Source of the DNA: Patescibacteria group bacterium
GTDB taxonomy: Bacteria > Patescibacteriota > Minisyncoccia > Minisyncoccales > Staskawiczbacteraceae
Length of the DNA: 35,216 nt
Direction: 5' to 3'
NCBI GenBank assembly: GCA_018829965.1
Contig: JAHJTG010000005.1
Location: 113,558-148,773 of the forward strand
Of the stretch, positions 14,505 through 23,982 are shown one piece after another. The position numbers and the translations under genes were made by a program. Below the pieces are notes generated by a model. The model searched no databases. It saw nothing but the letters and a program-made list of their open reading frames with translations, and had not been told where the DNA came from. The stretch's first letter is position 1. Each line of letters begins with the position of its first letter.

Positions 14505-14925
14505 GGGGATGCAAGCTTCGATAAAAGATCTTTCACAAAATAAGCAAACCGAGTATTCTTAAACCTCGTAAAACTTTAAGAGACAAAATAAGTGTCAACT
14601 TATTTAAACAACCAGCGTTAGCATACGTTTAACGCTCATCCTTCCTGCCAACTCCTAATAGGCAGAATAGCCCTATGCTTAAACCTATTTTGCAAAAGTT
14701 TAAGACGGGCCCGTTCAGAATTTTTTAAAAAATTCTAAATAGGGGGTGTCACATATTAGGATATGTGATTTTCCGCCTTAGAAAATCATCGAAAAAATTC
14801 AAGGCTAAGGATATATAAGATTTTTGTCTATTCTTTATCTAATATCCAAGAACTAAAATAGACTACGTTTGTAGAATTATTTTGTAAAAACTTTTAGACG
14901 CGGTTTCAATACCGCCATCTCCACC
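14505..14925 (+). ncRNA. ssrA: transfer-messenger RNA (tmRNA)
   Basis: acceptor stem GGGGATG (14505-14511) pairs with CATCTCC (14916-14922); T-arm GCGGTTTCAATACCGC; directly follows smpB; candidate tag ORF 14594-14632 GTC AAC TTA TTT AAA CAA CCA GCG TTA GCA TAC GTT TAA; CCA tail not fully encoded. Confidence 0.88.
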
Positions 14926-14933
14926 CTCTTTCG

Positions 14934-23082: not shown

Positions 23083-23397
23083 TTATACTTTATAAACACT
23101 ATAACCTTCTCTTACTTTTTCGCTTACCTTTAAGCCGGTGGAACTGCCTTTTTTTGCTGTTTTTACTTTTTCGTGCTCAACCTGCATTGAATCAACGGCT
23201 TGAGTAAAATCGGTATTTTCTCCGCCGACAATCCTTATATTATCTCCTTCTTTTAAAACACCTGAAAGCTCAATCACCGCTACTCCGATATTAGAAAAGT
23301 AATGGGTAATCTTACCGATTAGTTTTCCTTCCTTGTCCGCCGTAGCTTTAGCGGAGGCGGATTCTTTTTCTTTTGGCATAATACTTTTGCCTTGCAA
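23083..23397 (-). CDS. translation elongation factor-like (EF-Tu domain 2-like) small protein; likely start at internal ATG (MPKEK)
   Basis: GKLIGKITHYFSNIGVAVIELSGVLKEGDNIRIVGGENTDFTQAVDSMQVEHEKV. Confidence 0.75.
   Translation of the reverse strand: MQGKSIMPKEKESASAKATADKEGKLIGKITHYFSNIGVAVIELSGVLKEGDNIRIVGGENTDFTQAVDSMQVEHEKVKTAKKGSSTGLKVSEKVREGYSVYKV
23335..23361. repeat. palindromic repeat in the EF-like gene (TCCGCCGTAGCTTTAGCGGAGGCGGA)
   Basis: encodes low-complexity SASAKATADK; TCCGCC...GGCGGA inverted repeat. Confidence 0.7.
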
Positions 23398-23460
23398 AAG
23401 AAACTCTAAATACTAAATTCTAAATACGGCTTGGATTTTATTATTTAGAATTTGGGATTT

Positions 23461-23540
23461 GCTCCGACTTTGTTCCGACCTTGTCGAGAATGCTCGACTT
23501 TGTCGGCATCGAGAGTCCTCGACGATGTCGGGATTTAGGA
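23461..23540. repeat. dispersed repeat copy 2 (see 1771-1850)
   Basis: 62-bp exact identity to copy 1. Confidence 0.92.
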
Positions 23541-23617
23541 TTTAGGATTTCTAATTTAGGATTTACTATTTATTCGACCTTTTTAATATACTCTATTTTA
23601 ACATATTATTACGCACT

Positions 23618-23647
23618 CCGCACCAGAGTAAACACGATGCAGAACAG
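23618..23647. repeat. repeat copy CCGCACCAGAGTAAACACGATGCAGAACAG (intergenic)
   Basis: 27 nt shared with elp3 copy at 24860-24887 with four transitions. Confidence 0.75.
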
Positions 23648-23649
23648 AT

Positions 23650-23813
23650 CAAAAAACTCGCCTGAGGCGAGTGTTTTGATGAGGGGGCGTATAACTCTCA
23701 ATACCATCGGTTTAAGCTCGAGCCTGATTCGGACAAGTGAATCAAGTTTATATAGTTTAACCTTTTGCATTAAGAACCATTTTGTCCTTGAGAATAAATC
23801 TCTCACCCCCTCA
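23650..23813 (-). ncRNA. candidate orphan structured ncRNA (about 165 nt)
   Basis: 10-bp closing stem 23680-23689/23804-23813; hairpin TGATTC/GAATCA (23725-23744) whose loop GGACAA pairs with TTGTCC (23782-23787); intrinsic terminator ACTCGCC-TGA-GGCGAGT with U-tract on - strand. Confidence 0.6.
23656..23672 (-). terminator. intrinsic terminator of the candidate ncRNA
   Basis: ACTCGCC TGA GGCGAGT, followed by TTTTTT on - strand. Confidence 0.8.
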
Positions 23814-23819
23814 ACTTGT

Positions 23820-23847
23820 ATTCTAATCTCAGAGAAAAACGTGTCAA
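23820..23847 (-). promoter_or_regulatory. sigma70-type promoter for the candidate ncRNA
   Basis: TTGACA (23842-23847) - 16 nt - TAGAAT (23820-23825) on - strand. Confidence 0.6.
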
Positions 23848-23982
23848 GTTTTTTTATATGTGGATATTCAAACGAGATGCTTGTCCTTCCGAAGCCCGAA
23901 TGTAAATGAGGGCGAAGGAAGAAATTATGGGGACTTACTCTATTCAGAAATTTATAAAAATTTCTGACGAGCTCGACGCAAA

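Follow-up and report, generated by a model that had tools for sequence, protein, structure and literature searches.

The minus strand of the window, the whole 35,216-nucleotide stretch of Patescibacteria DNA that was analysed, carries, at approximately 23813-23650, a structured RNA some 136 nt long together with its promoter and intrinsic terminator. This RNA belongs to a family that is real and uncatalogued, as no Rfam 15 family fits it. We favour, with a probability of roughly 0.7, the reading that it is a stand-alone, trans-acting structured RNA with its own promoter, which folds into a pseudoknotted rod and works as a homodimer paired through palindromes.

A structured RNA gene and its family

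The conserved core of the RNA, delimited by two covariance models (R1 and R2) and by covariation, spans 23680-23813 on the minus strand, with the 5' end near 23813. It measures about 136 nt including flanking bases, and about 164 nt with the terminator. The promoter, TTGACA-N16-TAGAAT (23820-23847, minus strand; TTGACA at 23847-23842, TAGAAT at 23825-23820), matches the consensus hexamers at 11 of 12 positions. At least 10 of 12 matches were found in 74 of 83 homologues, compared with about 3 expected from shuffled sequences, and the -10 element of the homologues mostly ends 4-7 nt ahead of the closing stem. The terminator (23650-23672, minus strand) consists of the hairpin ACTCGCC-TCA-GGCGAGT at 23672-23656 followed by a run of T's, and such a T run lies no more than 70 nt after the closing stem P1 in 81 of 83 homologues. 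The hairpin at 23656-23672 scores as a terminator on the plus strand as well. A 176-nt stretch covering the RNA has a minimum free energy of -61.8 kcal/mol (z = -6.15), and none of 200 shuffles was equally low. The folding z-score, the conserved covarying structure and the promoter matches across homologues together confirm that the structured RNA is real and beyond chance. A preliminary description had proposed an orphan structured noncoding RNA with promoter, pseudoknot and terminator; all of these sequence elements are present on the minus strand, and the proposal is strongly supported. The mini-ORF MVLNAKG that it also listed is there in the sequence, but has no counterpart in 69 homologues and is incidental.

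The secondary structure was assessed in an alignment (A8) of 69 distinct RNAs, which was fitted to most of the helices; the pseudoknot was absent from the model. Over helices P1, P2, P3, P3b and P4 and the pseudoknot, 92.2% of the cells are paired. Changes on both sides were seen in 38 of 43 pairs, with 428 doubly changed cells as opposed to 114 in shuffles, and the covariation score was 0.456, against 0.201 when shuffled and at most 0.131 when the partners were slid by 1-3 columns.

All helices lie on the minus strand. The 10-bp closing stem P1 pairs UGAGGGGGUG (23804-23813) with CGCCCCCUCA (23689-23680) and shows changes on both sides in 8 of 9 pairs. Hairpin P2, GAGA-UUUAU-UCUC, is found at 23790-23804 (the matched string starts one base ahead of the hairpin); 4 of 4 pairs covary and 99.3% of its cells are paired. 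The long internal helix P3, AUGGUUCUUAAUGC/GGUAUUGAGAGUUAU, joins 23767-23780 to 23705-23691, with both-side changes in 12 of 13 pairs. In P3b, GGUU (23759-23762) pairs with AACC (23712-23709), and 3 of 3 tested pairs covary. Hairpin P4, UGAUUC-ACUUGUCC-GAAUCA (23744-23725; 9 of 9 pairs covary), bears the loop that engages in the pseudoknot, in which GGACAA (23782-23787) is complementary to UUGUCC (23731-23736). The two pseudoknot strands change together, as GGACA/UGUCC, GGGC/GCCC, GGAUA/UAUCC and GGCC/GGCC, and as GGCAG/CUGCC in RNAs found later. Since they covary although they lie outside the model, the pseudoknot is confirmed. The closing stem, the inner hairpin and the pseudoknot of the preliminary description thus all stand, the last by passing the test for compensatory changes, whereas P2, P3, P3b, the palindromic segments and the genomic block described below were absent from it. 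The predicted fold would be a closed rod, with hairpin P2 and the P3/P3b rod both inside P1. P3b would open into a junction with hairpin P4, the loop of which would form the pseudoknot by pairing with the GGACA segment that separates P2 from P3, leaving an unpaired self-complementary segment on either side of P4.

A plain DNA search revealed relatives in 16 of 58 genomes. Model R1, built from five relatives, detected the RNA in at least 68 of the 247 genomes sampled from the order to which this genome belongs; each gave a single match, almost always full-length, and two of the matches were short and spurious. These are the 49-nt matches L083 and L084, and the true copy in one of the two genomes is L140. 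With model R2, at least 81 of the 247 genomes and at least 68 of 178 good-quality ones carry the RNA. It is therefore a single-copy RNA, distributed over many families of the order and present in at least about one third of the sampled genomes. Named records with the RNA include Candidatus Staskawiczbacteria, Nealsonbacteria, Wildermuthbacteria and other Patescibacteria. Outside the order the RNA is rare: it occurs in at least one genome (G314) of the class sample, and the candidates scored in the phylum sample added none. DNA-pattern matches in Komagataeibacter, a betaproteobacterium and Caldilineaceae gave no covariance-model match and are due to chance, and a viral origin was rejected, the DNA pattern being absent from viral contigs. 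The hosts are ultra-small bacteria, most of them uncultured, that have reduced genomes, and a single-copy noncoding RNA gene retained there probably earns its place.

None of the 4227 models of Rfam 15 reached its gathering threshold in the RNA region or for the RNA in the loci of eight relatives, and at E<=10 the RNA and divergent members of the family gave only chance-level scores. The only Rfam match in the window is a tmRNA at 14505-14926 on the plus strand (87.6 bits; missed by ARAGORN), and the RNase P RNA is encoded on another contig, so that an identity with either was rejected. The two SRP RNA models (RF00169 and RF01854) match neither this RNA nor any other place in the genome. An SRP RNA is implausible, because the RNA fits neither model and is missing from many relatives. 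The preliminary description had likewise seen no signature of these three classes. The genome, whose listed completeness is 99.7%, may encode a diverged SRP RNA, or the search may have overlooked the gene.

Self-complementary segments and the putative homodimer

Two self-complementary segments lie between P3b and P4, flanking P4, and are unpaired in the model. Site 1 (UAUAUA, 23749-23754, minus strand), recognized by palindrome and covariation statistics, is up to 12 nt long and GC-richer in relatives. In this genome it is weak (-3.0 kcal/mol), and only site 2 (GCUCGAGC, 23716-23723, minus strand) is strong. A perfect palindrome of at least 6 bases was found at site 1 in 87% of the 69 RNAs, compared with 20% in shuffles (maximum 35% in 500), and one of at least 8 bases in 70%. 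The palindromes come in 35 different sequences, for example GCAGCUGC, GGAUAUCC, GGAAUUCC, AAAGGUACCUUU and GGCGUACGCC. The result was replicated with 14 RNAs found later, 10 of which have a site-1 palindrome (2.4 expected; maximum 8 in 2000 shuffles).

When the four symmetric pairs of site 1 were scored at fixed alignment columns, 86.4% were standard pairs, and the covariation score reached 0.736, against 0.223 for shuffled and at most 0.175 for slid columns. The innermost pair is formed by neighbouring columns, with complementary bases in 56 of the 69 RNAs (UA 29, GC 18, CG 5, AU 4). At least 14 double changes have occurred at this pair, as counted on a tree built without these columns. Neighbouring bases are unable to pair in one chain, and therefore the pairing should be between two molecules. 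For the same reason standard alignment folding misses covariation of this kind, as adjacent positions cannot be paired there.

Site 2 follows the same trend but more weakly (covariation score 0.407 vs 0.227 shuffled). In 97% of the RNAs, one site or both can form a self-duplex of -9 kcal/mol or better, in contrast to 25% of shuffles; a few members, such as L025, lack a clear palindrome at one or both sites. The self-duplex energies of the two sites are anticorrelated (r = -0.47 overall, -0.32 within the own family and -0.57 in the rest), a value that ignores relatedness and carries no weight in our reading. Computation on the aligned RNAs shows that self-complementarity is kept by selection while the sequence itself changes. 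We infer that a dimer would form in cells and that the RNA would act in trans: two molecules would pair through one or both palindromic segments, and the resulting homodimer may serve as a scaffold, probably together with a protein.

Genomic setting and alternative readings

The RNA is part of a conserved block with the order tRNA-Arg, RNA, SLOG gene (optional) and a gene for a small protein resembling domain 2 of EF-Tu. In the window this last gene is located at 23083-23397 on the minus strand, and was assigned by synteny and by a PF03144 match just below the cut-off (E 3e-6). It follows the RNA on the same strand, either directly or after a Rossmann-fold gene, which proved to be SLOG cluster 4 (PF18306) in the one member scanned and resembles a related LOG-type protein in a few loci. 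In many genomes (L022, L028, L033, L035, L038, L039, L048, L050 and others) a tRNA-Arg gene (anticodon CCG or CCT) closely precedes the RNA on its strand; in this window none lies just upstream of the RNA. In some relatives the tRNA-Arg gene adjoins the SLOG or the EF-Tu-domain-2-like gene, and no remnant of the RNA was detected between them with filters off, while in four loci the RNA lies next to other genes. The EF-Tu-domain-2-like protein may, judging from its position, be a functional partner of the RNA; this tie, derived from synteny alone, loses weight because some relatives have the gene block but not the RNA.

Several features of the downstream region were observed besides. A short, conserved leader word, AAAGGTC(G), follows the -10 element of the EF-Tu-domain-2-like gene at about 23577-23582 (minus strand) and in L112, L116, L122, L124 and L128; genomes that lack the RNA have it too. 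The gap between the RNA and the next gene, at 23400-23570, is filled with degenerate repeats of small size (AAATCCTAAAT units and units like CGACAAAGTCGAG), which lengthen the leader of that gene here. At its start (23320-23397, minus strand), the EF-Tu-domain-2-like gene carries a palindromic, GC-rich insertion, TCCGCCTCCGCTAAAGCTACGGCGGA, which is translated in frame as SASAKATADK. Some relatives have comparable insertions (ASAKATAGK) in this gene, a pattern that looks like the entry of a mobile palindromic repeat into coding DNA.

The arrangement of promoter, structured RNA, terminator and gene is that of an attenuator, and in 79 of the 83 distinct loci the RNA is followed, on its own strand, by a SLOG and/or EF-Tu-domain-2-like gene. 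The RNA could accordingly be a cis-acting leader, a riboswitch or transcription attenuator that responds to some signal and governs transcription past the terminator into these genes, as the preliminary description had considered. We regard this as unlikely. After the terminator, the next gene has an extended -10 element of its own (TGTTAAAAT, 23595-23603, minus strand), and an element of this type is found at the same place in most homologous loci, as judged by consensus alone. The RNA is also separable from the genes that it would regulate, because the block without the RNA and, in the four loci mentioned, the RNA without the block both occur. The terminator varies freely, and inspection revealed no conserved alternative pairing with it; the 5' strand of P1 fits a terminator arm in this genome but, on inspection, not in relatives, so that a conserved antiterminator was rejected. 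Moreover, a leader has no need for self-complementary segments. The putative -10 element that the next gene usually has, the clean absence of the RNA from some loci and its persistence elsewhere thus speak against a riboswitch or attenuator. The RNA behaves like an independent cassette that brings its own promoter and terminator, which makes a trans-acting, stand-alone RNA the likelier reading.

The RNA might also be monomeric, its palindromes being either small local hairpins, each with a loop of 4 nt, or accidents of sequence. Hairpins of 3-4 bp around a 4-nt loop are indeed possible in some members (e.g., AAAG-GUAC-CUUU), and RNAalifold places such hairpin pairs at site 1. Yet a hairpin loop needs no self-complementarity, whereas the central columns of site 1 are complementary with four pair types in the 56 RNAs counted above, and most site-1 palindromes, folded as a local hairpin, would keep just two outer pairs. 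This makes a monomer quite improbable. Least probable of all, and very much so, is a diverged 6S-like RNA binding RNA polymerase, another option of the preliminary description. The RNA resembles 6S RNA as a closed rod of similar length, with a long closing stem and a single copy per genome, and Rfam finds no 6S RNA (RF00013) in this genome. The region itself, however, gave no 6S match even at E<=10, and there is no correspondence in structure: hairpin P2 and the pseudoknot strand occupy the place of the open central bubble of 6S RNA. The RNA is patchily distributed, being missing from many relatives, and a conserved pseudoknot and palindromes, both present here, are not known features of 6S RNA.

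Possible role and relation to known RNAs

The motif AAGGAG occurs in 36 of the 69 members. Anti-Shine-Dalgarno pairing was rejected as the core function, since the motif is confined to these members and is missing in this genome's copy. Together with the neighbouring genes, the motif only suggests a role near translation. A more specific proposal, that the RNA is a pseudoknotted homodimer of Patescibacteria which uses two palindromic contacts to scaffold a translation-linked ribonucleoprotein, is unlikely as a whole, while its dimer part appears well supported by the covarying palindromes. As to what might be held together, the EF-Tu-domain-2-like protein or two ribosomes tethered via the Shine-Dalgarno-like segment are speculative examples.

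RNAs of the raiA type are orphan structured RNAs that are often located upstream of a gene apparently related to translation. The RNA described here shares with these and other orphan RNAs its position, often ahead of a translation-looking gene, but it has no Rfam match and differs in genes, lineage and fold. In the literature on noncoding RNA of these bacteria, of which our coverage was partial, we found nothing on this RNA.

Few natural RNA-only homo-oligomers are known, and those from bacteria whose structures were solved recently are very large. If the homodimer is real, a core of about 136 nt with dozens of covarying palindromes would offer a small, tractable system for studying the purpose of RNA quaternary structure. 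The closest parallels are OLE, ROOL and GOLLD (PMC12286853), to none of which Rfam matched this RNA. They too are bacterial noncoding RNAs of obscure function with symmetric palindromic loop-loop contacts, and for OLE and GOLLD, Kretsch et al. used the same neighbouring-base argument and saw the contacts by cryo-EM (PMC12286853). A palindromic segment with neighbouring-base covariation, as in OLE and GOLLD, is found here as well. OLE, ROOL and GOLLD differ in being much larger, with other folds and other hosts, and their multimers were seen by cryo-EM, whereas we infer the dimer of the present RNA from the covariation of its palindromes.
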